64,000 bases of DNA from the NCBI RefSeq assembly GCF_002209355.2, contig NZ_CP106855.1, positions 62,001 to 126,000 on the forward strand, given 5' to 3'. How positions within the stretch are numbered: the first letter of the stretch is position 1; each line of letters opens with the position of its first letter. This DNA is from Bdellovibrio sp. SKB1291214. Its GTDB lineage: Bacteria > Bdellovibrionota > Bdellovibrionia > Bdellovibrionales > Bdellovibrionaceae. A program made the position numbers and the translations under genes. Shown here in pieces: positions 28,220 to 45,053 of the stretch. The notes under the pieces were generated by a model that did not search any database, was not told the DNA's origin, and saw nothing but the letters and a program-made list of their open reading frames with translations.

Positions 28220-29050
28220 TTAAACTTTATCAAGTTCAACGCGCGGCGACTCTGCCAGATTCGCTCCAGTAGCGGTCGTCGACGACTTTTCAGGAATCGA
28301 AAGTGGGAACATTTGAATATTCAAAGAGTACACTTCACTCTGCGTCCCTTGCTGCAGCAGACGCAAAATTCGGCCACGGAATCTTTCAATCATACGCTCA
28401 GCCACGGGGATCTGCTGCGGATTCACTGTCAGCGTGACACCCGTGTAACTGGAGTTCACTTCAAGGTCCATTGCTTGACCGGCTTTTTCCAAATGCTTTC
28501 TATAGTATTCGCGGCTTTCTGGATTTGCGCATTCGTAAGACGTGATTAGACGACGATGAACGATTTCCAGGCCTCGCTCCTCGTGACGAACCAGCTCCAT
28601 GCGCTCGAGATTTGTAATCGCTTGCTCGACCGCCTCCGGAGTCAATCCCAAACGCTCACCAATCCATTTCACATCATCATTGCCGTTAGAAATTCTAAGC
28701 AAATTCAAAATTGCGTATTCTTCCCAGCCCCCCATTAAGTGGCCACTTTTCACCCCTAGCACTCGGTCTGAATTAAAGCGCCGAGATGTGACGGAAATGT
28801 ATGAGCGAAGTTGCTGGCGCTCGTCTTGATTCAATCCCAAACCGGTCGAGATCTTTTCAAAATAGAACTCACTCAAAGGACGCTTGCCACGAATAAGTTC
28901 GCTTAAGCGACCTGGTGTGATGCCGATTTTGTAAGCAACCATGCGTAGGGAAATACGGCGGTTGGTCTTACGGAGTTCTTCGAATTTGTTCATCATGAAT
29001 TCTGTAATAGTCTGGTTTTGCATGAACACAGTATTCGACCAAGAGGTCAT
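28220..29050 (-). CDS. TIGR02147/DUF4423 family regulator (paralogue)
   Basis: About 276 residues and the paralogue of the downstream gene. Both share the same order: helix-turn-helix (ISLRMVAYKIGITPGRLSEL, RGKRPLSEFYFEKISTGLGL), a second DNA-binding-like region (VKWIGERLGLTPEAVEQAIT) and a C-terminal part with VTLTVNPQQIPVAERMIERF. The start is unclear: ATG 29050 and ATG 29023 both lack a ribosome site, and the paralogue's N terminus aligns with the latter. It is divergent from the protein kinase gene, so it may control it. Confidence 0.85.
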   Translation of the reverse strand: MTSWSNTVFMQNQTITEFMMNKFEELRKTNRRISLRMVAYKIGITPGRLSELIRGKRPLSEFYFEKISTGLGLNQDERQQLRSYISVTSRRFNSDRVLGVKSGHLMGGWEEYAILNLLRISNGNDDVKWIGERLGLTPEAVEQAITNLERMELVRHEERGLEIVHRRLITSYECANPESREYYRKHLEKAGQAMDLEVNSSYTGVTLTVNPQQIPVAERMIERFRGRILRLLQQGTQSEVYSLNIQMFPLSIPEKSSTTATGANLAESPRVELDKV

Positions 29051-29192
29051 TTTAATCCATACATATCGATAGGTTACGCTCACTAAGCGCTCCCTCAACT
29101 GTATCACGGGAACATCATTTCCCATTATGGAACGGTATTTAAATTCTTATTTATAATGAGAGGCCCGAAAAAAACCGAAAAGTTCCATAGGC

Positions 29193-30737
29193 ATGACAAC
29201 TCAAAAAAGAATAGGACCATTCCAGATTATCAAGCGTATCGCTGAGGGCGGTATGGCTGAAGTCTATTTGGGAAAATCAGAATCGCGATTCGGCGTCAGC
29301 AAGCTTGTCGCTATCAAAACCACGTTGCCTGTGGGACAAACAGACGAAAAAAATGCCGAGATTTTTAAAGAGATGTTCTTTAAAGAAATTCGTGTCAGCG
29401 CCAATCTTAATCATCAAAACATCGTAAAAATCTACGACTTTGGCGAGCACGAAAGTCGCGCCTATATGGTCATGGAGTACATCCACGGCGTAACGTTGCG
29501 CGACTTGATGGCCTATCACCGCGAAATTGAAAAACCACTGAATACAGCTTTCATTCTGTACATCATTCATCAAGTGGCCCTTGCTCTGGGGTACGCCTTC
29601 CATTCCGTGGATCCGCAGACGGGATCAAAACTGAAACTGATTCATCGAGACATCAGCCCCCACAACATTCTGATTTCTTTTGAAGGGGAAGTTAAAATTA
29701 TCGACTTCGGAATTGCGAAAGCATCTCGAGATAAAGAACTTACGCAGTTAGGTTTGGTTAAGGGCAAAGTCGCCTATATGAGCCCGGAACAAATCAAACA
29801 TGAAGACTTAGATCAACGCACGGATATCTTTTCCCTGGGCATTGTTTTCTGGGAACTGCTTTCAAACATGCGCTTCTTTGCCGCAAGCACCGTGGGTGAA
29901 ATCAAAAATGCGATTAAACTGTATGATGTTGCCCATCTTTCGACTTCAGCCATTAAGGACCGCTCGCCGGAGTTGCGAAATTTGCTGACGAAAATGCTGA
30001 ATCAAAATCCCGAACGTCGTATCGACGATGCCAATGATGTTGCCCGCCTGGTGGGTACTTTATTATCGGTCAAGCATCCTGATTTTTCTGCATTGGCATT
30101 TGCTGAATACCTGAAAGATGTTTTCGCGGTCACATACAAAGACACGATGGCGGAGATTAAAAAGTTCGTCCTTGAAGACGATCAAACCATGACTATTAGT
30201 ACGACAGCTACCGCCGAGGAAGTGATGTCAATGCTGACTCACGAAACGGAATCAGGCACTAAAACTGGTACCGGCACCGGTAATACCGCACTGACTTTGA
30301 GAGGCATCACAGTGCCACCTCTGCCCGTCACTTTAAATCCTCCGCCACCTCCCAAGGTCGACCCAAGCACATGGGAGAACCCACAGCCTATTATTCGTAA
30401 TTTTGGTAAACCCCAACCTCAGGCGCCGAATATCAAATTCGGAAACGCTTTGATGGGAGCACTGGGTATTGCTGTGGTGCTGACTGTGGGATTGCTATTA
30501 GGAAAATCAAATCTGGAAGGACAAAAAGTCGCCGCTAAAAACCAAGTGCAAGTTCCGACTTTGACACCAATCCAGGTGCGCAGACCAGCTCAGCAACAAA
30601 TGGTTTTACCGGCTCCGCCAAGCCCATTTAAAAAACCGCCGACAGTCACAAAACGAATGCCCAAGAAAAAACGTTACCCGGCGGCGACTCGAACTCAAGA
30701 CATCACCACGTCCACTCCAGCTCCGGTCAAAAAATAA
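29193..30737 (+). CDS. Hanks-type serine/threonine protein kinase
   Basis: A 514-residue membrane kinase. The N-terminal kinase domain (about 6-285) has the glycine loop AEGGMAEVYLGKS, the catalytic loop HRDISPHN (Asp153), IIDFGIAKAS and YMSPEQIK. A Pro-rich juxtamembrane part (about 365-415) leads to one membrane helix (about 418-438, MGALGIAVVLTVGLLLG), and a basic Pro-rich periplasmic tail with no PASTA domain. The activation loop contains Thr residues (ELTQLG). Convergent with the FHA-GGDEF gene whose N-terminal tail holds candidate phospho-threonines. Divergent from the TIGR02147 pair. Confidence 0.95.
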   Translation: MTTQKRIGPFQIIKRIAEGGMAEVYLGKSESRFGVSKLVAIKTTLPVGQTDEKNAEIFKEMFFKEIRVSANLNHQNIVKIYDFGEHESRAYMVMEYIHGVTLRDLMAYHREIEKPLNTAFILYIIHQVALALGYAFHSVDPQTGSKLKLIHRDISPHNILISFEGEVKIIDFGIAKASRDKELTQLGLVKGKVAYMSPEQIKHEDLDQRTDIFSLGIVFWELLSNMRFFAASTVGEIKNAIKLYDVAHLSTSAIKDRSPELRNLLTKMLNQNPERRIDDANDVARLVGTLLSVKHPDFSALAFAEYLKDVFAVTYKDTMAEIKKFVLEDDQTMTISTTATAEEVMSMLTHETESGTKTGTGTGNTALTLRGITVPPLPVTLNPPPPPKVDPSTWENPQPIIRNFGKPQPQAPNIKFGNALMGALGIAVVLTVGLLLGKSNLEGQKVAAKNQVQVPTLTPIQVRRPAQQQMVLPAPPSPFKKPPTVTKRMPKKKRYPAATRTQDITTSTPAPVKK

Positions 30738-31830: not shown

Positions 31831-33183
31831 TTAGAACCAGACTTCGTACTGGTAACCGATATTCATTCCGTTCGATTTGTCCGCGAAAGTAGGAGCACTT
31901 GCACCAATACGGGTGTCGCCTTGATTTGCGTCGTTCCAGAATGAGTAAGAAACGTACGCACGCATCACAGGACGGCCCCAGATACTCTTTTTAAATGAAA
32001 GTTGAGGAGCGATAGCAATGCGGCCCAAATCGCGAACGCCAACATACGGCCCCGTCGTTCCGCCATTCACTCGTTCAGATTGATCTTCGTAACGAGTGTA
32101 ACCAAGCTCCGTCGCTAACTGAAATCTATCCGTGAAATAGTAAATGGGGCGAACGCCAAAGCCTTGCCACTGAACCACGTTGTCTGAATCTTTACCATTG
32201 CTACCATAACTTGCAGCTGCACCCAAAAAGATCGCCCAATTATCAACAACGTCCATGGTCCAATCTTCTACCAAACGAACATTCCACGCTTTGTTTTGAG
32301 TGTTCGTAGAATCAACGGCACTGCTGCCATAAACATTGAAGTCTTTCATAGCGCCTTGACCGAACTCAAGAGCGGCCTTGTTGTAACCAGAGAAAGCTTT
32401 ACCTTCTAATTTTGTCGCCAGAACGTAACCATTGGTGTTTTCAAATGTAGTCGTTGTTCCTCCGACAGTGTTAGTGCTGCCTTTCGCCCACGCATAGACA
32501 CCCCAGAAGCTGATGGTTTGTTCTGCAAAAACTGGAATTGTCGAGTAACGGATATCCCAGATATTCAAAACAGGACGACCGATAGAGGTTGTTGCAAACT
32601 CTTCGTTTGACTGAAGCAAGTTCGCGATCGCTAATTTACCGGGTCCGACTGGGATAGCTTCAAGACCAGCACCTACACCTGCCATCTCTGCATAGTAGTA
32701 CCAATCGAAGATGTATAAATCGATATCCCGGTAAAATCTTTTACCAACCCAGTATTCTATCGGATTGCCATCTAAACCCCCGGCTTTTACGTAAGCTTCG
32801 ATTTCTGATTTAGGAACGCTGAATGTAACGGTGGATGAAGGAGTACCGCCCGAAGTATCAATCGTTTGACTTTGTTTCGCCGATTCCCATTGACGTAAAC
32901 CGTCAGAACTATACGCATAGCGTAGTTGCGTTCTAAAAAATGAAGAGTCGCCCGCATCCGGTTTTTTGTGGTGGAACACGAAACCCAATTCCGTATAGAA
33001 ATCGCATTCATTTCCTAAACGTAGGAAATTACCGGGCATTCCGCTGTTGCGGAAGCACTCCATTTTACCACCCTCTTGATTGACGCCAGAACCACCACGC
33101 AAGTAAGTCGTAAAGTCTGCCTCGAGAGCAAGCGCGTTATTAGATGCGAACACGATCGTAAGAACCCAAAAGATTATTTTCAT
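31831..33183 (-). CDS. lamB: Maltoporin (LamB family)
   Basis: A 450-residue outer-membrane porin for maltodextrins. After the signal peptide (WVLTIVFASNNALA) the sequence follows LamB: ADFTTYLRGGSGVNQ, then RLGNECDFYTELGF, which matches the RLGNECETYAEL block of E. coli LamB. The barrel strands and the final GYQYEVWF with terminal Phe are as expected. Start ATG 33183 has AAGGAAT ahead. It is divergent from the pullulanase gene across a 90-bp region and is the entry point for the alpha-glucan locus. It would pass maltodextrins into the periplasm. Confidence 0.93.
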   Translation of the reverse strand: MKIIFWVLTIVFASNNALALEADFTTYLRGGSGVNQEGGKMECFRNSGMPGNFLRLGNECDFYTELGFVFHHKKPDAGDSSFFRTQLRYAYSSDGLRQWESAKQSQTIDTSGGTPSSTVTFSVPKSEIEAYVKAGGLDGNPIEYWVGKRFYRDIDLYIFDWYYYAEMAGVGAGLEAIPVGPGKLAIANLLQSNEEFATTSIGRPVLNIWDIRYSTIPVFAEQTISFWGVYAWAKGSTNTVGGTTTTFENTNGYVLATKLEGKAFSGYNKAALEFGQGAMKDFNVYGSSAVDSTNTQNKAWNVRLVEDWTMDVVDNWAIFLGAAASYGSNGKDSDNVVQWQGFGVRPIYYFTDRFQLATELGYTRYEDQSERVNGGTTGPYVGVRDLGRIAIAPQLSFKKSIWGRPVMRAYVSYSFWNDANQGDTRIGASAPTFADKSNGMNIGYQYEVWF

Positions 33184-33273
33184 ACCCAATTCCTTGAAAA
33201 ACCCGAGCATCACCCATAAAGTCCCGCCCTGACCAGACCTAATGCATGGAATTAGCAAAAATAAGGGGATACT

Positions 33274-35955
33274 TTGCTAGATCGAAAGCTGAAGCACTTT
33301 TGCGGGACATTTATTATCATTGCGCTAGCGTGTCTATTATTAGACAGCGCAAAAGCTGCAGCCCCTGCACGCGCGCAATGGTTGAGTTCGCAAAAAATGT
33401 TGGTCAAACTTCCGCAGGGCTTGCGAGTTGCCGACAACATGATGTTTCAACTTGCCAATAGCGACATCAATTTCAAAGACGTTCCACGGACTTATCCTCT
33501 GCCCGTTATTCAACGTCAGGACAATTATGCGGTCGTCAGTACAGCTTCTTTAAACCGTCAGATTATTGAAGATTTGATCCACAGACCTCTCAAGGTTTTC
33601 GTAACCAACGATCAAAATCAGCTTCTTGATTCAACGCCCATTCAATATGCGGGTCTTTTGGATGAGCTTTACGCTTATCGTGGCGGCGATCTGGGAGTAA
33701 CGAATCAAGGTGCTCAGTTTCAAATGAAACTGTGGGCTCCAACAGCGTACTCGGTGCGAGTGGCTTTGTTTGCTTCGCCCACAGCGATGCAATCAGATGT
33801 TGTACTTGTTCCGACTTATCAAAACGGTGTATGGACGACACTTGTTCCTCGCCAGTATCAAAATTATTTCTATCTGTATGAAGTGACTGTGTATCAACCA
33901 CTGACAGACCGTATGGAGACGTCCCTAGTGACTGATCCCTACAGCATGAGTCTTGCGATGAATGGCGCGAAATCTCAACTAGTAGATCTGGATAGCGCCG
34001 AGTCTAAACCATATGGATGGGATACCTTAACAAAGCCCCAACTCAACTCTTTCAAAGACATAACAATCTATGAATTGCACATCCGTGATTTCAGCGCGAA
34101 CGACGAAAGCATTCCTTTCGTTTACCGCGGAACTTACGATGCTTTCGCACAAAGTGGCAGCCATGGTGTTCAATACCTAAAGTCTTTGGCTGATTCCGGT
34201 CTAACTCACGTACATCTTTTGCCATTCAATGATTTTGGATCGGTGAACGAAGACCGTGCAACATGGGAGACGATCAATGCTTCGTCATCAAATCTGCAAG
34301 ATGCGCAAGGTGCCTTAGCGCAGATTCGTTCTCGAGACGCTTTTAACTGGGGTTATGATCCGGTTCATTTCTTTGTTCCAGACGGCAGTTATGCGATGGA
34401 CCCTCAAGGTTTGTCTCGCGTGCGGGAAACCCGCGCGATGGTGCAAGGTTTGAATAACTTGGGTCTGCGCGTGGTTCAAGACGTGGTTTTCAATCACACC
34501 TACGAAAACGGGCTAAGTGCTTTTTCGGTCTTTGATAAAATCGTGCCTCTTTATTATTACCGTCTGACGGATGACGGTTATACTTACAATAGCTCTTGTT
34601 GTGCAGACACGGCCAGCGAACATGTGATGATGGAAAAGCTGATTGTTGATTCCGTCGTTCACTGGGCAAAAAACTATAAAATCGACGCTTTCCGTTTTGA
34701 TCTGATGTCGTTCCACTCTCGCTCCACGTTGATGAAGGTGAAAGAGGCTTTGCGCTCTTTGACTCCACAACGTGATGGTGTCGACGGGTCTCGTATCTAT
34801 ATATATGGTGAAGCTTGGCCATTTGGTTCGTTCTATAATCAGAACCCCCAAGAATCGATGAGCCAACTGAACGCTTACGGTACTGGTATTGGTTTCTTTA
34901 ATGATCGTTTGCGTGATGCGGTTCGCGGTGGAACAACAAGTTCTTCGGAAAAATCAGATCAAGGTTTCGCAACCGGTTTGTATTTCGATTTCAATCAAGA
35001 GCCCGCAAATCAAAACACTCCTGCAAACATCAATGACCAAATGGATAAAATTCGCCATTTGGGTGACGTGATTAAAGTGGGCCTAGCGGGTAACTTACGT
35101 GACTTTACATTCCGCGAACACTTCGGAAATGTTATTTACGCCGGCAATCTATTATTCCGAAACAGCCCCGTTGCCACATCTGCCGAGCCCATTGAAACAA
35201 TCAATTACGTCTCTGCTCATGACGGTTATACGTTATGGGATGCAGTTCAGGCCAAGGCTCCATTCTATACGAATGGTCGTCTGCCACAGACGGCAACTGC
35301 TTCTGAACGCCAACGCATGCATCAACTGGCGATGGCTATTCCAATGCTTTCCCAGGGTGTTCCGTTTATGGAAGCCGGCGTGGAGCTTCTTCGCTCTAAA
35401 AATGGCGACCAAGACTCTTATGATTCTGGCGACTATTTTAATCGCATCAACTGGCGTGCTGACGACAACTATTGGGGTCAAGGCTTGCCACCTGCTTGGA
35501 AGAACTATAACGACTGGTCGTTCTGGTTGCCTCGCTTGCAGAATCAAGATCTGAAAGTTAATCCGGCTTTGATTTCGCAAACTGCGAATTATTATAAAGC
35601 TCTGCTACGTCTGCGTAAGAACAACTCCTTGTTCAAAATGAACACATTGGATGAAGTCATGAAAGGTTTGGTTTTCATTGATAATGAAAACGTCATCGAG
35701 CCTGGCTTGATCTCCATGGTTCTGCATAACGAGCGCGAAGCTCTTTTGGTTATGTTTAATAGCTCGAGAGTTCCTCGAGTGTTTTCTCACAAAGTACTGA
35801 GTTATAACTGGGCTTTCACGCCTGAGTTTGGTCCGAATGTGGATCCTATGCTTTCGCAAGTGATCCTCAATCGTCCTCAGTCACAGATCCAAATTCCTGG
35901 CATGACGACAGTTGTGCTGAAGTTGAATAAGGGTCCATTTCAGGGTGTTAAATAA
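33274..35955 (+). CDS. pulA: Secreted type I pullulanase (GH13)
   Basis: An 893-residue exported debranching enzyme that cuts alpha-1,6 bonds in pullulan, starch or glycogen. Signal about 1-28 (FIIIALACLLLDSAKAA), an N-terminal CBM48-like domain (about 125-250, FQMKLWAPTAYSVRVALF), then GH13 with the type I marker FNWGYDP. Catalytic residues: nucleophile Asp476 in AFRFDLMS, acid Glu513 in YIYGEAWP, third Asp in SAHDGYTLWD. The start is TTG with AAGGGGA ahead. Its TAA overlaps the ATG of the transport gene (TAATG), so it is translationally coupled to it. No lipobox was seen, so it is probably soluble in periplasm or secreted. Confidence 0.94.
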   Translation: MLDRKLKHFCGTFIIIALACLLLDSAKAAAPARAQWLSSQKMLVKLPQGLRVADNMMFQLANSDINFKDVPRTYPLPVIQRQDNYAVVSTASLNRQIIEDLIHRPLKVFVTNDQNQLLDSTPIQYAGLLDELYAYRGGDLGVTNQGAQFQMKLWAPTAYSVRVALFASPTAMQSDVVLVPTYQNGVWTTLVPRQYQNYFYLYEVTVYQPLTDRMETSLVTDPYSMSLAMNGAKSQLVDLDSAESKPYGWDTLTKPQLNSFKDITIYELHIRDFSANDESIPFVYRGTYDAFAQSGSHGVQYLKSLADSGLTHVHLLPFNDFGSVNEDRATWETINASSSNLQDAQGALAQIRSRDAFNWGYDPVHFFVPDGSYAMDPQGLSRVRETRAMVQGLNNLGLRVVQDVVFNHTYENGLSAFSVFDKIVPLYYYRLTDDGYTYNSSCCADTASEHVMMEKLIVDSVVHWAKNYKIDAFRFDLMSFHSRSTLMKVKEALRSLTPQRDGVDGSRIYIYGEAWPFGSFYNQNPQESMSQLNAYGTGIGFFNDRLRDAVRGGTTSSSEKSDQGFATGLYFDFNQEPANQNTPANINDQMDKIRHLGDVIKVGLAGNLRDFTFREHFGNVIYAGNLLFRNSPVATSAEPIETINYVSAHDGYTLWDAVQAKAPFYTNGRLPQTATASERQRMHQLAMAIPMLSQGVPFMEAGVELLRSKNGDQDSYDSGDYFNRINWRADDNYWGQGLPPAWKNYNDWSFWLPRLQNQDLKVNPALISQTANYYKALLRLRKNNSLFKMNTLDEVMKGLVFIDNENVIEPGLISMVLHNEREALLVMFNSSRVPRVFSHKVLSYNWAFTPEFGPNVDPMLSQVILNRPQSQIQIPGMTTVVLKLNKGPFQGVK

Positions 35956-38153
35956 TGCGGTATTATTTGTTTCTTTTGATTACGTTCTGTTCGATGGCTG
36001 CCCAAGCGGAGAAAATGCGTATCCACGTATGGCACCAAATGATCTATGGCCACCGTCAAGTTTTGGCGGAGGTTCTTAGGGAATTTGAAAAACAAAATCC
36101 TGATATCATCGTGCAGGCAACCTATCGCGAAACTGAAGAGCTTCGCAGTGGATATCAATCCGCCGCGATGGGCGGTTCAGGTCCCGAGTTAGTCTATGGA
36201 CCTTCTGACCAAATCGGTCCCTTCGCTACAATGGGCATCATTCGCCCTTTGGATGAAGTCCTGGGCGCTGAATATTTCAAACAGTTCGATCCTCTGGCGG
36301 CTCCGACTTATAATGGTAAGCACTTTGCTATCGGTGATGGTGTCGGTAATCACTTGATGTTGATCTATAATAAAAAGTTGCTGCAATCTCCTCCAAAAAA
36401 TACAGATGAATTGATCGAATTTGGCAAAAGACTGACTGTTGATAAAAACGGCGACGGTCGTGTGGATCAGTGGGGATTGGTCTTTAACTACACGGAGCCT
36501 TTCTTTTTTGCTCCTTTCATTCCCGCGTTTGGCGACGACTTTATTAAAGACGAAATTAAACCAAATCTGAACACGCCAGCCCTTGCGAATACATTCCAAT
36601 TTATTTTGGACATGCGTGATAAATACAAAATCATCCCCAAAGAGTGTGACTATGAAACGGCCAATGCTCTGTTCAAAGACGGCAAATCTGCGATGCTTAT
36701 CAATGGTGACTGGTCTTGGGGTGACTATAAGGAAGCCAAAATTGATTTCGGCATCGCGCGCATCCCCATGGTTTCAGGAACTGGTAAGTGGCCAGCTTCT
36801 TTAGTTGGTACAAAAGCTTATTCACTTAACGTGAATATGAAATCACCAAAACATCTGGAAGCCGCGGTTAAGCTTTTGACTTACTTAACATCCACTCCAG
36901 TGCAGCTTCAGTTCGCAGAAAAAGTGGGCACCTTGCCATCAAACCTTGATGCGCGCGAATCTGATATTGTTAAAAACAATCCGCTGTTAAAAATTTCTGC
37001 AGACATCATGGAGGTGGGTCATCCACTGCCGATCGTGCCTGAAGTTCGCGCCATCTGGGACAGTTTGCGTATTCAATACCAAAAAGTTCTAGCTGGCAGC
37101 TTGCCTCCACAAGTGGCGGCTGAAGGTGCACAGAACTTAGCAGAAAAACAAATCGCTGAAATGAACGAAGTCTTGCAACCAGACGTGGGTGCCTACATCG
37201 TTAAAGCCATCTTTGCATTAGTGATTCTGGGTGGTTTATGGATGAGCCGCGGCTCTTTAATGGGTTTCATTAAAGGATTCCAAGGTCCGAATCGCTTTGC
37301 GTACTATATGATGCTGCCAGCGTTTATCGGAATCTTTGCAGTCATCGTTTATCCGTTCTTTTATAATATCGCGATTTCGTTTTCGAACTTCTCATTAAGA
37401 ACATTCCAGGACTGGTCGATCGTAGGCTTCACTCACTACATCAATGCTTTGATGGACCCTAAGTTCTATTCACTGCTTTTGAAAACTGTGATCTGGACAG
37501 TTGTGAACGTGTTCTTCCACGTAACATTGGGTGTATTCTTAGCGGTTGTTATCAACCAAGTGATGCCATTCAAAGGTTTCTGGAGAGCATTGCTGATCAT
37601 CCCATGGGCAGTCCCTCAGTACATCACGGCTTTAACTTGGAGAGCGATGTTCAATCAGGAATACGGCCCGATCAACATCATGCTGCAAAAGTTTTTGCAC
37701 ATGTCCCCGATCCAATGGTTAAGCCAACCTACAACCGCTTTTGCAGCTTGTATCATCACCAACGTATGGCTGGGCTTCCCATTCATGATGATCGTGGCTT
37801 TGGGTGGTTTGCAGTCGATTTCTAATTCTCTGTACGAAGCGGCGCGCTTGGATGGTGCAAATGCCTGGGAGCGTTTCCGTCACATTACTTGGCCGCTGCT
37901 ATTACCAGTAATGGCGCCTGCAGCATTGCTGGGTTCTATCTGGACATTTAATAATTTGAACGTGATCTGGCTTGTTTCCAACTCGGGTGAACCTGGGGAC
38001 CAAACACACATCTTGGTTTCTTACGTTTATAAAGCAGCGTTTAACTTGTATCGCTACGGCTATGCAGCCGCTGTTTCTGTCATCATTTTCTTAATCTTGG
38101 TTATCTGGGGCTTAGGAATGCTTAAGTCTCAATACAAAAAGGAGACGCAGTAA
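35955..38153 (+). CDS. malEF: Fused maltodextrin-binding protein and MalF-type permease
   Basis: A 732-residue fusion. Residues about 1-19 are a signal peptide (FLLITFCSMAAQA); about 20-400 form a family-1 solute-binding protein (MRIHVWHQMIYGHRQVLAEV); a connecting membrane helix follows (about 410-432, VKAIFALVILGGLWMS). Then comes a MalF-type permease with six helices and the EAA loop EAARLDGANAWERF (from 628) that contacts MalK. The connecting helix puts the binding domain outside and lets the permease start inside, so the topology works. In E. coli MalE is a separate protein. Overlaps both neighbours by one base (TAATG). Confidence 0.9.
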   Translation: MRYYLFLLITFCSMAAQAEKMRIHVWHQMIYGHRQVLAEVLREFEKQNPDIIVQATYRETEELRSGYQSAAMGGSGPELVYGPSDQIGPFATMGIIRPLDEVLGAEYFKQFDPLAAPTYNGKHFAIGDGVGNHLMLIYNKKLLQSPPKNTDELIEFGKRLTVDKNGDGRVDQWGLVFNYTEPFFFAPFIPAFGDDFIKDEIKPNLNTPALANTFQFILDMRDKYKIIPKECDYETANALFKDGKSAMLINGDWSWGDYKEAKIDFGIARIPMVSGTGKWPASLVGTKAYSLNVNMKSPKHLEAAVKLLTYLTSTPVQLQFAEKVGTLPSNLDARESDIVKNNPLLKISADIMEVGHPLPIVPEVRAIWDSLRIQYQKVLAGSLPPQVAAEGAQNLAEKQIAEMNEVLQPDVGAYIVKAIFALVILGGLWMSRGSLMGFIKGFQGPNRFAYYMMLPAFIGIFAVIVYPFFYNIAISFSNFSLRTFQDWSIVGFTHYINALMDPKFYSLLLKTVIWTVVNVFFHVTLGVFLAVVINQVMPFKGFWRALLIIPWAVPQYITALTWRAMFNQEYGPINIMLQKFLHMSPIQWLSQPTTAFAACIITNVWLGFPFMMIVALGGLQSISNSLYEAARLDGANAWERFRHITWPLLLPVMAPAALLGSIWTFNNLNVIWLVSNSGEPGDQTHILVSYVYKAAFNLYRYGYAAAVSVIIFLILVIWGLGMLKSQYKKETQ

Positions 38154-38971
38154 TGATTAAACGTATCCTTGCATGGGTTGCGATCCTTTTATTTGCAGCG
38201 TTTTCACTGTACCCGATTATTTATGTGATCTCGGTGTCTTTACGCGGAGACAACGCTTTCCAAACACAATCTTTGGAAATCATCGGACCTAACTCAACTT
38301 ACAGAAACTTTGTGGACCTTTTCACAAAAACAGATTTCTTGGTGTGGTTGAAAAATTCCTTGATCATCAGCTCAGTGACAACGTTTGCAGGCGTGGCGTT
38401 GGCTTCTTGCAGTGCCTATGCTTTATCTCGTTACCGTTTTCGCGGTCGTAACTCGATGTTATTCGCTTTGTTAACAACACAAATGTTCCCGGCGACGATG
38501 TTGATGCTTCCGTTCTTTATCATCTTGTCGCAACTGCATCTGATCGACAGCTTCTGGGGCTTGTTCATCATTTACTCTTCGACGGCGTTGCCATTCTGTA
38601 TTTGGCAGATGAAAGCTTATTACGACACGATTCCTCGCGAGCTTGAAGAAGCTGCGCTTTTGGATGGTTGCTCCCGCTGGATGATCTTTACCAAAATCAT
38701 TTTGCCGGTGTCTTCACCAGCACTTGTGATCACGGCACTCTTCAGCTTTATGTCGAGCTGGTCCGAATACGTGATTGCAGCTGTGGTTCTGCAGGACCCA
38801 CAGCTTTACACTTTGCCGTTGGGACTTCGTTCGTTCCAGGCAAGTTTAGCGACTCAATGGGGCTTGTATGCTGCAGGCGCATTGATCGTCAGCGTTCCAG
38901 TTTTAGTTTTATTCATCAGTATTTCCCGTTATTTGGTATCTGGTCTGACAATGGGAAGCGTGAAGGGTTAA
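38153..38971 (+). CDS. malG: Maltose/maltodextrin ABC permease, MalG type
   Basis: A 272-residue inner-membrane permease with six predicted helices and the EAA loop EEAALLDGCSRWMIF near residues 163-177, the MalK contact site. It pairs with the MalEF fusion to form the transport channel. Length is near that of MalG (E. coli 296). It starts on the last base of the fusion gene's stop codon (TAATG) and ends one base before the ATPase gene start. Substrate inferred from the amylase and pullulanase around it. Confidence 0.93.
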   Translation: MIKRILAWVAILLFAAFSLYPIIYVISVSLRGDNAFQTQSLEIIGPNSTYRNFVDLFTKTDFLVWLKNSLIISSVTTFAGVALASCSAYALSRYRFRGRNSMLFALLTTQMFPATMLMLPFFIILSQLHLIDSFWGLFIIYSSTALPFCIWQMKAYYDTIPRELEEAALLDGCSRWMIFTKIILPVSSPALVITALFSFMSSWSEYVIAAVVLQDPQLYTLPLGLRSFQASLATQWGLYAAGALIVSVPVLVLFISISRYLVSGLTMGSVKG

Positions 38972-38972
38972 T

Positions 38973-40016
38973 ATGGCGACTATTGAATTTTCTAACATCG
39001 CAAAAAGCTTCGGTACTGCCAAAGTTCTTAAAGACATCAATTTGGAAATCGCTTCCGGTGAATTCCTTGTGCTTGTGGGTCCTTCTGGTTGCGGTAAATC
39101 CACGTTACTTCGTACTTTGGCGGGTCTTGAAACTTTGGATTCAGGAACTATCAAAGTCGGCGGCAAAGTTATCAACAATGTTGAGCCTCAAGATCGTGAT
39201 TTGGCGATGGTGTTCCAAAGCTATGCCCTTTACCCGCACATGACGGTTGAAGAAAACATGGGCTTTGGATTGAAGTTGCAAAAACTGTCTGTCACGGAAA
39301 TCACGAAACGCGTGAAAGAAATAGCGGATCTTTTGCAGATCTCCCACCTATTGGCTCGTCGTCCAAAAGAACTTTCGGGCGGTCAACGTCAACGTGTGGC
39401 TTTGGGTCGTGCTTTGGCTCGTAAAACTCCGGTGATTTTGTTTGACGAACCTCTTTCTAATTTAGATGCCCATTTGCGCACGCAAATGCGTGTCGAGATC
39501 AAACGCCTTCACGAAAACTCTAAGTCCACAATGATCTATGTAACCCATGATCAAATGGAAGCGACAACTATGGGTGATCGAATCGCCGTTCTTAAAGATG
39601 GCGTGATCGAACAGGTTGGGACTCCAACAGAAATCTATCACCGCCCTAAAAACATGTTCATCGCCAGCTTCATAGGCTCCCCTGAAATGAATTTCATTGA
39701 AGGCGCCGTGGTACGCCGCATGCCTTGGCCAGAAGCTCAAAAGGCTGATCAAGTTTTGGGTATTCGCCCTGAAAGCTTCAGATTCAATAATGGCGATCTG
39801 AAATCAAATGAAGTGGCACTGGGTGATTTTACGGTAGAACTTTCAGAAAATCTCGGTGGTCAGCAGATGCTGCATGGCCAATTAGAGGGACAAACTGTGA
39901 GAATTATTACGGATTCTATGGATAAATTTTCTAAGGGACAGAAGGTTTCCTTAAAAATTGATCTGACAAAAGCTCACCTGTTTGATAAAAAATCAGGCCA
40001 GAACCAGCGTCTATAG
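38973..40016 (+). CDS. malK: ABC transporter ATPase, MalK/UgpC type
   Basis: A 347-residue ATP-binding subunit. Walker A GPSGCGKST (about 36-44), Q-loop MVFQSYALYP, signature LSGGQRQRVALG, Walker B VILFDEPLSNLD and the switch His in YVTHDQ are all present. The C-terminal extension (about 240-347) is the MalK/UgpC regulatory domain. It is one base after malG, so it is in the operon. Such domains in E. coli bind MalT or EIIA-Glc; here no partner is known. Drives maltodextrin uptake through MalEF/MalG. Confidence 0.95.
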   Translation: MATIEFSNIAKSFGTAKVLKDINLEIASGEFLVLVGPSGCGKSTLLRTLAGLETLDSGTIKVGGKVINNVEPQDRDLAMVFQSYALYPHMTVEENMGFGLKLQKLSVTEITKRVKEIADLLQISHLLARRPKELSGGQRQRVALGRALARKTPVILFDEPLSNLDAHLRTQMRVEIKRLHENSKSTMIYVTHDQMEATTMGDRIAVLKDGVIEQVGTPTEIYHRPKNMFIASFIGSPEMNFIEGAVVRRMPWPEAQKADQVLGIRPESFRFNNGDLKSNEVALGDFTVELSENLGGQQMLHGQLEGQTVRIITDSMDKFSKGQKVSLKIDLTKAHLFDKKSGQNQRL

Positions 40017-40024
40017 GAGACCCC

Positions 40025-41470
40025 ATGTTCTCGAAGTTGCAGCGTACAATCCTATTCGTAGCCATCTTATTAGGTACTACTTCGGCGTTCGCTGCCCCGA
40101 GAACAGTTTTTGTTCAACTCTTCGAGTGGCCGTGGAGAGAAGTTGCACGTGAGTGTGAGCTGTACCTGGGACCTTCTGGTTTTTCTGCCGTTCAAGTTTC
40201 CCCTCCCCATGAACACGTATCTGCGAATGGCGCCTGGTGGGAACGCTATCAAGTCGTTAGTTATAAAATGGAATCTCGTGGTGGTTCCGAAGCTGAATTC
40301 GCCGACATGGTTCGCCGCTGTAATAAGGCGGGCGTTGATGTTTATGCTGACGCTGTTTTAAATCACATGTCGGGTTTCCCATCCGGTGTGGGCTTTGCGG
40401 GCTCTACGTTCACGCACAACAATTATCCAGGTGTCTATAGCCCTAATGACTTTCACTACTGCGGTCGTAACGGCAATAACAATATCGTTAATTATCGTGA
40501 CCTGTATGAGTTGCAAAACTGCCAATTAGTCGGCCTTGCCGACTTGGCCACTGAGTCCGCGTACGTTCAGCAGAAAATGGCTGATTACCTTAATCACTTG
40601 TTGGATTTAGGTGTCTCGGGCTTCCGTTTAGACGCTGCCAAACACATGCCTTCAAAGGACTTGGCCCAAATCACAAAACGCATGAAACGTTCTGCCTACG
40701 TCTTCCAAGAGATCATTCATGAATCTTATGGACCCGTGACCTATGACGAATATTTTCCGGCTGGTGATGTAACTGCTTACGAATACCCGTTCATTTTAGG
40801 TGGCAGTATTAAGTACGGTCACCTTGGTAACTTGCTATACATCGCTAAGAACTTACCAAGCAGCGACCATTCTGTGGTCTTCGTCACCAATCATGACTTG
40901 GAAAGAACCGGTGATGGCAACATCCTTCGCTACAATGGTTCAGACAATTCGATCTATCGTTTGGCGCAAATCTTTATGTTGGCTTATCCGTATGGCTATC
41001 CACAGGTTTACTCTGGATACGACTTCAATTCTTACGATCAAGGTCCGCCATTAGGTTCTGATATGCGCACGTTGGGCATCTTGGCGCAAAACAACTCCTG
41101 TGTAGCTCCATGGACTTGCGAACACCGTCTGCCTGAAGTGGCTGCGATGGTGAATTTCAGAAACCAAACTGATAAAGCGTTCTATGTATCCAACTGGAAC
41201 ACGGATAACACGAACTTCGTGTCCTTCAGCCGTGGTGGATTAGGTTTCGTGGCATTGAATTTCTCTGGAAACTCGATGAATCTGACTTTGCAAACAGGCT
41301 TGCCTGCGGGCGCTTACTGTAATTTGACTGGCCCGTCTTACAGCCGTCAATCCCGCAAGTGTTCAGACATGAAATACAACGTCAATTCTGACGGAACTAT
41401 CAATGTGAACTTGCCTCCTTACTCATCTCTGGTACTTTTGAACCGCGATCAAAATAAACGTACAAAGTAA
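40025..41470 (+). CDS. amyA: Secreted animal-type alpha-amylase (GH13)
   Basis: A 481-residue exported alpha-amylase. After the signal peptide (FVAILLGTTSAFA) the text FVQLFEWPWREVARECELYL, WWERYQVVSYKMESR and DAVLNHMSG closely follows animal pancreatic amylases rather than the usual bacterial ones. Catalytic residues: Asp203 (GFRLDAAKH), Glu229 (FQEIIHE), Asp291 (TNHDLER). Of the animal chloride ligands, Arg201 and Asn289 are kept but the Arg337 equivalent is Gln327 (YGYPQVYSGY), which predicts chloride independence. Cleaves internal alpha-1,4 bonds of starch or glycogen. Last but one gene of the operon; animal-type bacterial amylases are known in other lineages. Confidence 0.93.
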   Translation: MFSKLQRTILFVAILLGTTSAFAAPRTVFVQLFEWPWREVARECELYLGPSGFSAVQVSPPHEHVSANGAWWERYQVVSYKMESRGGSEAEFADMVRRCNKAGVDVYADAVLNHMSGFPSGVGFAGSTFTHNNYPGVYSPNDFHYCGRNGNNNIVNYRDLYELQNCQLVGLADLATESAYVQQKMADYLNHLLDLGVSGFRLDAAKHMPSKDLAQITKRMKRSAYVFQEIIHESYGPVTYDEYFPAGDVTAYEYPFILGGSIKYGHLGNLLYIAKNLPSSDHSVVFVTNHDLERTGDGNILRYNGSDNSIYRLAQIFMLAYPYGYPQVYSGYDFNSYDQGPPLGSDMRTLGILAQNNSCVAPWTCEHRLPEVAAMVNFRNQTDKAFYVSNWNTDNTNFVSFSRGGLGFVALNFSGNSMNLTLQTGLPAGAYCNLTGPSYSRQSRKCSDMKYNVNSDGTINVNLPPYSSLVLLNRDQNKRTK

Positions 41471-41477
41471 GAGAATC

Positions 41478-42458
41478 ATGACTAAAAAATCTTATACTAT
41501 TGGCTTCGATTTAGGTGGAACTAAACTGGCGGCAGCTTTATTGGACAACAATGGAGACATGCTTGATTTCATCAAAGTTCCTGTCGACATGAAACGCGAG
41601 GGCTCTGCCCAAAAAACTCAAAAGCGCGTGATCCAAGTGATGGCTGACATCGCTCTTGATTTCAAAAAACGTTTTCCTAAAGAAACATCCGCTTCTGTTT
41701 TCAAAGGTATCGGCCTAGCCAGCGCAGGACCTTTGAATGCTGAAGAAGGCAAATTAGTAAATCCCGTCAACTATCCTGGTTGGAAAATCGTTCCGATCCG
41801 TGACTTGGTTGAAAAAGAAATCGTTAAACGCGGTTTCAAAACCAAAGTTTACTTTCAACACGATGCGACCGCTGCAGCCCTGGCTGAAGGCTGGGTGGGC
41901 GGAGCCAAAGGCATGAAGTCCTTTGCCGTTGTGACTGTGGGAACTGGCGTTGGCTCAGGCATTATCTTTAACGGTATGCCTTGCCAAAGCAGCGGCATGG
42001 GCTCTGAATGCGGGCACTTCGTTGCTGATATGGTTGGCTTGAAAAATAATCCTGATAAAATTCATCACTACACGGTGGAAGGTCTTGCATCGGGTACAGG
42101 GCTTTTGCGTCGTGCAAAGGAAATGGGATTCACGGGGAACTCTGTCGAGGAGTTGGTTGACACCAAAGATTCTAAGTACAGCGGACTTTATTCTGATATG
42201 GCCTTTGCGTTGGCTCTTTTGTGTCACAATCTTTCCTTGGCGTTTAACTTGGAAAAAATCTTTATCAGCGGTGGTTTGATTAAAATCAAAGACCTTTACT
42301 TCAAAGAGTTGAAAGCGAACTACTCTAAAATCATTCGTCAGATCAACACCGATCTTGAGTGCAAAATCGAAATCGCTAAAACGAAAAATCACGCCGGTGT
42401 TTTGGGTGCGGGATATCTTCCGCATCTTTACGGCAAGCACACGGCTAAAAAGAAGTAA
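41478..42458 (+). CDS. ROK-family kinase, probable glucokinase
   Basis: A 326-residue sugar kinase of the ROK family. ATP site GFDLGGTKLAAALLD (about 9-23), a glycine-rich VTVGTGVGSGII and the conserved Asp in HDATAAALAEGW. The usual zinc motif CxCGxxGCxE is missing; in its place the region after ECGHF has no Cys cluster, which is unusual for glucokinases of the family. Starts 7 bases after amyA. Context (pullulanase, amylase, maltodextrin transporter, nearby pgi) points to glucose as substrate, though other sugars are possible. Confidence 0.85.
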   Translation: MTKKSYTIGFDLGGTKLAAALLDNNGDMLDFIKVPVDMKREGSAQKTQKRVIQVMADIALDFKKRFPKETSASVFKGIGLASAGPLNAEEGKLVNPVNYPGWKIVPIRDLVEKEIVKRGFKTKVYFQHDATAAALAEGWVGGAKGMKSFAVVTVGTGVGSGIIFNGMPCQSSGMGSECGHFVADMVGLKNNPDKIHHYTVEGLASGTGLLRRAKEMGFTGNSVEELVDTKDSKYSGLYSDMAFALALLCHNLSLAFNLEKIFISGGLIKIKDLYFKELKANYSKIIRQINTDLECKIEIAKTKNHAGVLGAGYLPHLYGKHTAKKK

Positions 42459-43747: not shown

Positions 43748-43806
43748 CAATGATGTACGGACTTACCTGCGAAGTAAGTAACTACCTTTTAAAGGTAGGG
43801 ACTTAC
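43748..43806. repeat. GTAAGGAC-family intergenic repeat
   Basis: Contains ACTTAC/GTAAGT and a 17-bp palindrome CTACCTTT-T-AAAGGTAG (43782-43798), plus the words ACGGACTTACC and AGGGACTTACTT. It overlaps the stop codon of pgi on the minus strand. It shares these words with 5947-6017 and 47793-47862. Confidence 0.7.
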
Positions 43807-45017
43807 TTTTTAAGTTTTGCTTTTGCCAAAACTTTGCCGGCTTCCACACCTGGCTGATTGAACGCATCGATTTTCAAGTATTCGCCCAAGCCTGCAACGA
43901 CTAATTGCCAGAACATGAACAAGTAACCCAAAGTTTCTTCGTCCAATGTTTTTGTCTTCAAAGTCATGGTGGAAACTCCGTTCGCGACCAGGGCTTCTTG
44001 GGTTGCTAAGGCTTCGGCTTTTAGCAACTCGCCCATCGTGCGACCTTGCAAATCCATGGTTTCTTTAAATTGAGCAGTTTTAATTTTTAGTGAACCGCCC
44101 TCAGCCTCTTCCACGCGTTGGAAGATCACGAATTTATCTTTCGTACCCTCCATCACTTGTTGAAGGATCGAGTGCTGATCAGAAGCACCGATAGCTGCGA
44201 TTGGTGTGGATACGCGAGGAGCTGGAGTTCCAGCACGAGTCACCGGTTTACCCAAAGACTCTGCCCACAACTGAGCAAACCAACCACCAAAATCTTTCAT
44301 ACGAGAACTGTATGACCACAACAATGTGATCCACTCGTCACGACCGTATGATTGAATTACTTGGGCCATTGTTTGAGTCACAGTCGCGGTATCAAGAAGT
44401 GCGCGTTTTGCACCAACACGGAATTTTTCCAGATCCAGGCCCATGAAAGCTGCCGGGAACATACCTACTGGAGAAAGCACAGAGAAACGACCGCCGATAT
44501 CAAGTGGAATCTCACACTCAGGCACATTGTGCTTACGAGCCCACTCCGTCAAAGAACTAGATTTTGTTTCAGAAATGACGATGGAGTTTGTTGGAAGGTG
44601 AAGACCTTCGTCTTTGTACACTTGATCCAGAAGTTCCAAGGCACATAATGATTCAATCGTTGTACCGCTTTTAGAGATAAAGGCCCATGCAACATCTTTG
44701 AGGTCGCCCAACTCATCAATCAAAGTTTCAAATACCAAGGCATCCACGTTATCAACAAAGAAAACGTTGTGAGCGTTGAACACTTCGCGAATAACACGAG
44801 TTCCTAGGGAAGACCCGCCAAGACCGACAATGACTAGTTTTTTAAACTTCGCCGCGAAATCGGCTCCCGTTTTGTGAGATTGTTGCCACAAGTTGATACG
44901 CTCAACAAGTTGTGGGAAGCCGATCTCTTTTCTTTGCAAAAACAATTTCAAAGAAGACTGGCATTCCTGAATAAGATTTTCGGGATTGGTGTGTTTAGCC
45001 TGCGTGATTTCCAACAT
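43803..45017 (-). CDS. pgi: Glucose-6-phosphate isomerase
   Basis: A 404-residue Pgi, interconverting glucose-6-P and fructose-6-P. GLGGSSLGTRVI (phosphate-binding) and FISKSGTTIESLCALEL (SIS fold) are the family markers, and GRFSVLSPVGMFP with a Glu/Arg set follows. It is shorter than the E. coli enzyme (549) and fits the short archaeal/Gram-positive-like class. ATG 45017 is preferred, with AGAG ahead; TTG 45035 is an alternative. Last gene of an operon with the phosphoesterase and coiled-coil genes; works downstream of the ROK kinase. Confidence 0.93.
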   Translation of the reverse strand: MLEITQAKHTNPENLIQECQSSLKLFLQRKEIGFPQLVERINLWQQSHKTGADFAAKFKKLVIVGLGGSSLGTRVIREVFNAHNVFFVDNVDALVFETLIDELGDLKDVAWAFISKSGTTIESLCALELLDQVYKDEGLHLPTNSIVISETKSSSLTEWARKHNVPECEIPLDIGGRFSVLSPVGMFPAAFMGLDLEKFRVGAKRALLDTATVTQTMAQVIQSYGRDEWITLLWSYSSRMKDFGGWFAQLWAESLGKPVTRAGTPAPRVSTPIAAIGASDQHSILQQVMEGTKDKFVIFQRVEEAEGGSLKIKTAQFKETMDLQGRTMGELLKAEALATQEALVANGVSTMTLKTKTLDEETLGYLFMFWQLVVAGLGEYLKIDAFNQPGVEAGKVLAKAKLKK

Positions 45018-45053
45018 CGTGATTCTCTTTTCCAACAGCGGTTGCTGGAAAAA

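Follow-up and report, generated by a model that had tools for sequence, protein, structure and literature searches.

The 64,000-nucleotide stretch of Bdellovibrio sp. SKB1291214 DNA analyzed here (the window) carries a gene for an alpha-amylase within a seven-gene block made up of genes for LamB, a pullulanase, a fused MalE-MalF protein (MalEF), MalG, MalK, the amylase and a ROK kinase (Table 1), with 8 bases separating the amylase gene from malK and 7 bases separating it from the kinase gene. The LamB reading frame is listed from a TTG codon, and an internal Met at residue 26 starts a signal-like stretch. For the kinase, TIGR00744 is the top NCBIfam match but lies under its cut-off. Promoter-like sites number 11 against 13.7 expected, and terminator-like sites 18 against 11.6 expected. 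Near the LamB gene, at window positions 28220-30737, a DUF4423 HTH regulator gene on the minus strand is found beside a Ser/Thr protein kinase gene on the plus strand.

Table 1. Position, strand and basis of assignment of the features at the amylase locus (window coordinates).
Feature	Position	Strand	Basis
LamB-type maltoporin, divergent from the operon	31831..33258	-	Pfam LamB, 3.1e-82
Pullulanase-type debranching enzyme (CBM48, Pullul_strch_C), signal-like N-terminus	33274..35955	+	Pfam and translation
MalE-MalF fusion, binding domain joined to permease	35955..38153	+	Profile matches, 6ffl match
MalG-like permease	38153..38971	+	Profile matches
MalK/UgpC-like ATPase	38973..40016	+	Profile matches
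GH13 animal-type alpha-amylase ORF (481 aa, ATG start, intact)	40025..41470	+	Pfam, PDB search, alignment, model
Codon of Gln327 (place of mammalian Arg337 / AHA Lys300)	41003..41005	+	ORF-start arithmetic and alignment
ROK-family sugar kinase, probably glucokinase	41478..42458	+	PF00480, 1.8e-42
Phosphoglucose isomerase (PGI), next pathway enzyme	43803..45035	-	PF00342, 4.8e-20

The amylase contains the Pfam domains PF00128 Alpha-amylase (2.2e-14) and PF02806 Alpha-amylase_C (1.7e-12), and its N-terminus, up to about residue 23, is signal-like of the Sec type as judged by eye. The barrel and C-terminal beta-domain fold is recovered both from these domains and from a structure model (Z about 49 against amylases), which was built from 23 aligned sequences and has a mean pLDDT of 90.3 and a pTM of 0.89. 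Alignment to the Tenebrio amylase places the catalytic triad at D203/E229/D291, and the GH13 Asp nucleophile, Glu acid/base and Asp stabiliser are invariant in all 115 aligned rows among the matches listed. In the same alignment, all eight cysteines (8/8) pair with Tenebrio cysteines. Three of the four calcium ligands also match Tenebrio, while the fourth, which is Arg in Tenebrio, is Gln164, a state found in 98 of the 115 rows among the matches listed; the template positions of the calcium ligands, like those of the chloride ligands below, are presumed ones. A search for a second copy in the organism's own genome (a single contig of 3,681,188 bases) returned only a weak partial match (E 0.002), and no amylase relatives were found in one scan of viral contigs.

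Conservation of the block and the fused transporter

The seven-gene block is complete in 16 of 18 relatives, whose loci were examined over 8-15 kb. A genome from another family (G034) keeps MalEF-G-K-amylase-ROK, and G010 keeps MalG-MalK-amylase-ROK up to the end of its contig. The block is not seen in any of the 84 named rows among the matches listed, some of which have short flanks. In Halomonas maura, Modicisalibacter, Pseudactinotalea and Saccharopolyspora, differently arranged MalF/MalG-like genes lie no more than a few kb away, and a small number of other named rows, again with some flanks short, show a MalK-like or pullulanase-like match nearby. The amylase itself is present in 17 of the 23 other genomes of the genus (18 of 24 with its own) and in 1 of 14 same-order genomes from other families; across the class, 28 of 143 genomes carry it, its own included. 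The copy in G004, from the same genus, matches at 54% over residues 10-474. The amylase and the MalEF fusion are found together in 25 of the 143 class genomes, the amylase without the fusion in three (G010, G067 and G077), and the fusion without the amylase in two (G087 and G118). Because the contig search covered the best 80 of 572 confirmed stretches, the resulting counts describe near relatives; the rows left out were L044 (a copy of L019), L021-L038 (wider copies of L003-L020) and L002, which is without the amylase.

A MalE-like binding domain in frame with a MalF-like permease, uninterrupted by stops, occurs in 27 of the 143 class genomes. The binding domain of the window's fusion matches PDB 6ffl, a maltose/maltodextrin permease homologue, over residues 19-405 (1.8e-212), and the amylase therefore probably feeds a maltodextrin transporter of an already known type. 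The 6ffl entry presumably belongs to Licht et al. 2019 and comes from Bdellovibrio bacteriovorus; judging by its title, that work reportedly describes a maltose/maltodextrin transporter with MalE fused to MalF. With the type already described, the fusion was dropped as a novelty. An apparent one-piece fusion in Cetobacterium was likewise discarded, as it is actually two annotated genes, one for a binding protein and one for a permease. In an unannotated Nonomuraea record (L134:1501-3588), a single continuous match covers 94% of the MalEF fusion, and this is perhaps an independently fused transporter. With regard to malK, a tabulation in PMC8067016 gives the gene (K10111) under Oligoflexia as 0% versus 100%, and the malK-like gene that the Bdellovibrio group carries goes unmentioned in that part of the article; differing annotation thresholds may explain the figure.

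Resemblance to animal amylases and ancestry

The original prediction held that the protein reads like animal amylases, and this description is borne out, with the proviso that the nearest solved relatives include a bacterial enzyme, the AHA of Pseudoalteromonas, as well as animal amylases. In a phmmer search of the PDB, AHA stands on top (2.6e-116), scoring above every animal amylase (Drosophila 2.7e-101, Tenebrio 7e-100, pig about 1e-92), with the Bacillus amylases far lower (5.5e-18). The structure model gives the same picture: the top 45 PDB rows in VIA-align are all animal or AHA amylases (Z 49.8 to 45.3), superposing with an rmsd of 1.8-2.5 over 431-453 residues, compared with a Z of 38.8 for Bacillus amylases. 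On these matches and this fold the ‘animal-type’ label is correct and, given AHA, the type is therefore a bacterial one also.

Among known systems, AHA (Pseudoalteromonas haloplanktis, GH13_32; 1aqh, 1b0i) is the best solved sequence relative, with a Z of about 49, about 45% identity and the same catalytic residues, but it differs in having Lys at the third chloride ligand and in binding chloride, and the Pseudoalteromonas loci examined, unlike the window, are without the MalEF-G-K-ROK block. The animal amylases of GH13_15/24 (Tenebrio 1jae, Drosophila 8or6, pig and human pancreatic, 1kgw being human R337Q) share the fold (Z 45-50), the catalytic triad, two of the three chloride ligands and eight of the Tenebrio cysteines; they differ in that the three aligned have Arg as third ligand, in an identity of 38.6-41.8% and in forming a separate tree group. 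The best solved sequence match is a GH13_32 enzyme, but the branches that join the bacterial rows to the animals are weak.

This weakness is apparent in the first tree, which comprises 81 rows (25 of 106 having been dropped as redundant), has no inferred root and represents the animals by three arthropod-type sequences. The 16 rows of the genus group together at 97, with G034 at 99, and with the Bdellovibrionales MAG L116 at 95, while the three animal sequences form a group of their own at 100, amid bacteria, to which the window amylase does not belong. The backbone values are mostly 80-91 SH-aLRT, and holding the 17 Bdellovibrionota rows together with the three animal sequences lowers the log-likelihood by only 0.66 (AU p 0.505); these weak deep branches and this AU value decide neither for nor against an old link to animals. 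Outside the order, identity among the matches listed ranges from 47.2% (Kineococcus) down to 38.6% (26wd); the closest are bacteria, Kineococcus and Herpetosiphon at about 47%, and the value for Tenebrio, 41.8%, falls inside the range of the bacterial rows (39.9-47.2%).

A transfer between distant lineages had also been proposed. The conserved Bdellovibrionota block, the ordinary base composition (amylase GC 0.469 versus 0.459 for the window, with GC and the GC3 of 0.505 both within the range of the window's other genes) and the grouping within Bdellovibrionota all speak against a recent event, which is not supported and was rejected on grounds of synteny, composition and distribution. A likely account of the origin is instead an ancient common stock, in which animal-like amylases are widespread in bacteria, a bacterial donor supplied the animals, and the Bdellovibrionota enzymes are an old bacterial branch. 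Consistent with this account are the span of the bacterial relatives, which extends over Pseudomonadota, Actinomycetota, Cyanobacteriota and Chloroflexota, and the position of the animals as one group amid bacteria in the unrooted tree as drawn, although the weak backbone and the lack of a root count against it. In addition, PMC7003070 considers, in the part bearing on this question, that a proteobacterium was the likely source of the bilaterian amylases, and the resemblance would therefore run from bacteria to animals. The common-stock account concerns origin only and is compatible with the function proposed below. That an animal gene was transferred to the bacterium, the third chloride ligand being lost afterwards, is most improbable: a clade of Bdellovibrionota plus animals costs little likelihood and the Tenebrio identity sits within the bacterial range, but the closest rows beyond the order are bacterial among the matches listed, AHA outranks all animals in phmmer, the operon is conserved and the composition of the gene ordinary, and the direction put forward as likely in the relevant part of PMC7003070 is the opposite one.

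The third chloride ligand and the proposed function

The chloride ligands of the window amylase, by alignment to the presumed Tenebrio positions, are R201, N289 and Q327, the last being Arg in Tenebrio. Of the hallmarks of chloride-dependent amylases, the Arg and Asn ligands are therefore present and Gln327 stands where the third, Arg or Lys, would be; the Arg337-to-Gln327 difference from animal enzymes that was originally predicted is real, and its numbering is correct. Among the matches listed, the first two ligands are unchanged in 115 of 115 rows, whereas the third site is Q in 42, K in 41, T in 12, R in 5, S in 4, A in 3 and F in 2, with N, E, V, L, D and H once each. Within the genus, 17 of 18 rows have Q and the remaining one has F; nine further family rows have Q (6), H (1), K (1) and F (1); G034, from another family, has Q, and all three animals aligned have R. 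The 84 named bacterial rows among the matches listed, which include the MAG L116 (Q), have K (40), Q (18), T (12), S (4), A (3), R (2) and five single residues. AHA and its marine relatives carry Lys, the bacterial relatives being otherwise highly variable. Within the Bdellovibrio family, rows L124 (H), L126 (K), L130 (F) and L019 (F) depart from Q, so the site moves even between close relatives.

The AHA K300Q mutant is said to be chloride independent and weakly active, and natural Gln enzymes may for that reason need compensation. According to PDB titles, Gln has been engineered and crystallised at this site both in AHA (K300Q, 1jd9), where it matches the natural Gln of the window amylase, and in human pancreatic amylase (R337Q, 1kgw). 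The literature, as far as the relevant passages go, contains natural cases. Arg or Lys is treated as required in PMC8467227, with the Gln of Aeromonas hydrophila as a likely exception and with Lys in only a few bacteria of GH13_32; Gln is also found in Lepidoptera, yet the Bombyx enzyme is termed chloride dependent (PMC3281462, in the part concerned), and the step from Gln to chloride independence is therefore not automatic. Both resemble the window amylase in this residue, although the Lepidopteran enzymes belong to a separate lineage, as does the Aeromonas caviae row, which has Gln at 39.9% identity. Gln at the third site is thus common and no oddity, being the usual state of the lineage and already reported in Aeromonas and Lepidoptera. 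Gln327 is most likely an inherited state of the Bdellovibrionota lineage and not a fresh replacement of an animal Arg, which corrects a tempting story: what looks like a change by comparison with animal enzymes is normal for this bacterial lineage.

By precedent, the missing third basic ligand predicts an enzyme that is probably chloride independent. With good confidence, the protein can be regarded as an exported GH13_32-like amylase that serves as the hydrolase of the maltodextrin operon of a Bdellovibrio-type predator and probably works without chloride; the directly established parts of this explanation are the sequence, the fold model, the catalytic residues, and the gene order and its conservation. 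The pullulanase and the amylase would break down glycogen of the prey, or starch from the environment, into maltodextrins, which LamB would pass through the outer membrane and MalEF-MalG-MalK would import, with the ROK kinase and PGI feeding glycolysis; having Gln327 in place of Arg or Lys, the amylase would not hold chloride tightly and would work without it. Prey glycogen is located in the prey cytoplasm, and access to it during predation is for this reason an assumption. A literature search on Bdellovibrio amylase and glycogen returned no title on the subject, and the complete maltodextrin operon offers a testable path for a possible use of prey glycogen by the predator.

It is rather unlikely that chloride still activates the enzyme, with R201 and N289 as ligands and Gln327 as a weak third one. 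The retention of both ligands in every row among the matches listed, and the description of the Bombyx Gln enzyme in the relevant part of PMC3281462, would fit such activation, but Arg and Asn belong to the best conserved residues of GH13 with or without bound chloride (PMC8467227), and the relatives' third column includes T, S, A, F, V, L, D and E, as if the ligand role had gone.

Salinity and other amylase loci

The third site was also compared with habitat on a second tree of 102 rows (13 of 115 dropped as redundant), of which 61 were labelled saline or non-saline from habitats presumed for the named organisms and 41 were unlabelled. On these presumed labels, and among the matches listed, K or R is found in 28 of 31 saline rows but in only 1 of 30 non-saline rows, the other 29 having other residues, a contrast confounded by ancestry. 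Verrucosispora sediminis, Pseudactinotalea, Myceligenerans and Cellvibrio OA-2007 are exceptions to the pattern. Changes between K/R and other residues number at least 9 on this tree; of the phylogenetically independent pairs in which both residue and habitat differ, taken on supported branches, 2-3 agree with the pattern and 0 oppose it, and significance is out of reach because these pairs are so few. For the adaptation to low chloride suggested in the original prediction, the pattern thus offers a lead but no firm result, and a literature search found no title linking the third-site residue with salinity. Only tentatively, then, could the third ligand be seen as an evolutionary switch tracking salinity, with basic residues in marine and halophilic lineages and neutral ones in those of soil and fresh water, and with the window amylase as a chloride-free enzyme for prey glycogen. 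If the pattern is true, the natural K, R, Q, T, H and F series is a ready test set for the gain and loss of allosteric chloride activation.

Two other arrangements of animal-type amylase genes were met in the course of the analysis. In Pseudoalteromonas luteoviolacea (L066 and L118), two animal-type amylase reading frames adjoin each other on the same strand. On a Vibrio coralliilyticus plasmid typed as mobilizable, an animal-type amylase annotated as a starch-binding protein (L040:3004-4983) lies close to mobile mystery proteins A and B and to a MazEF-like pair.
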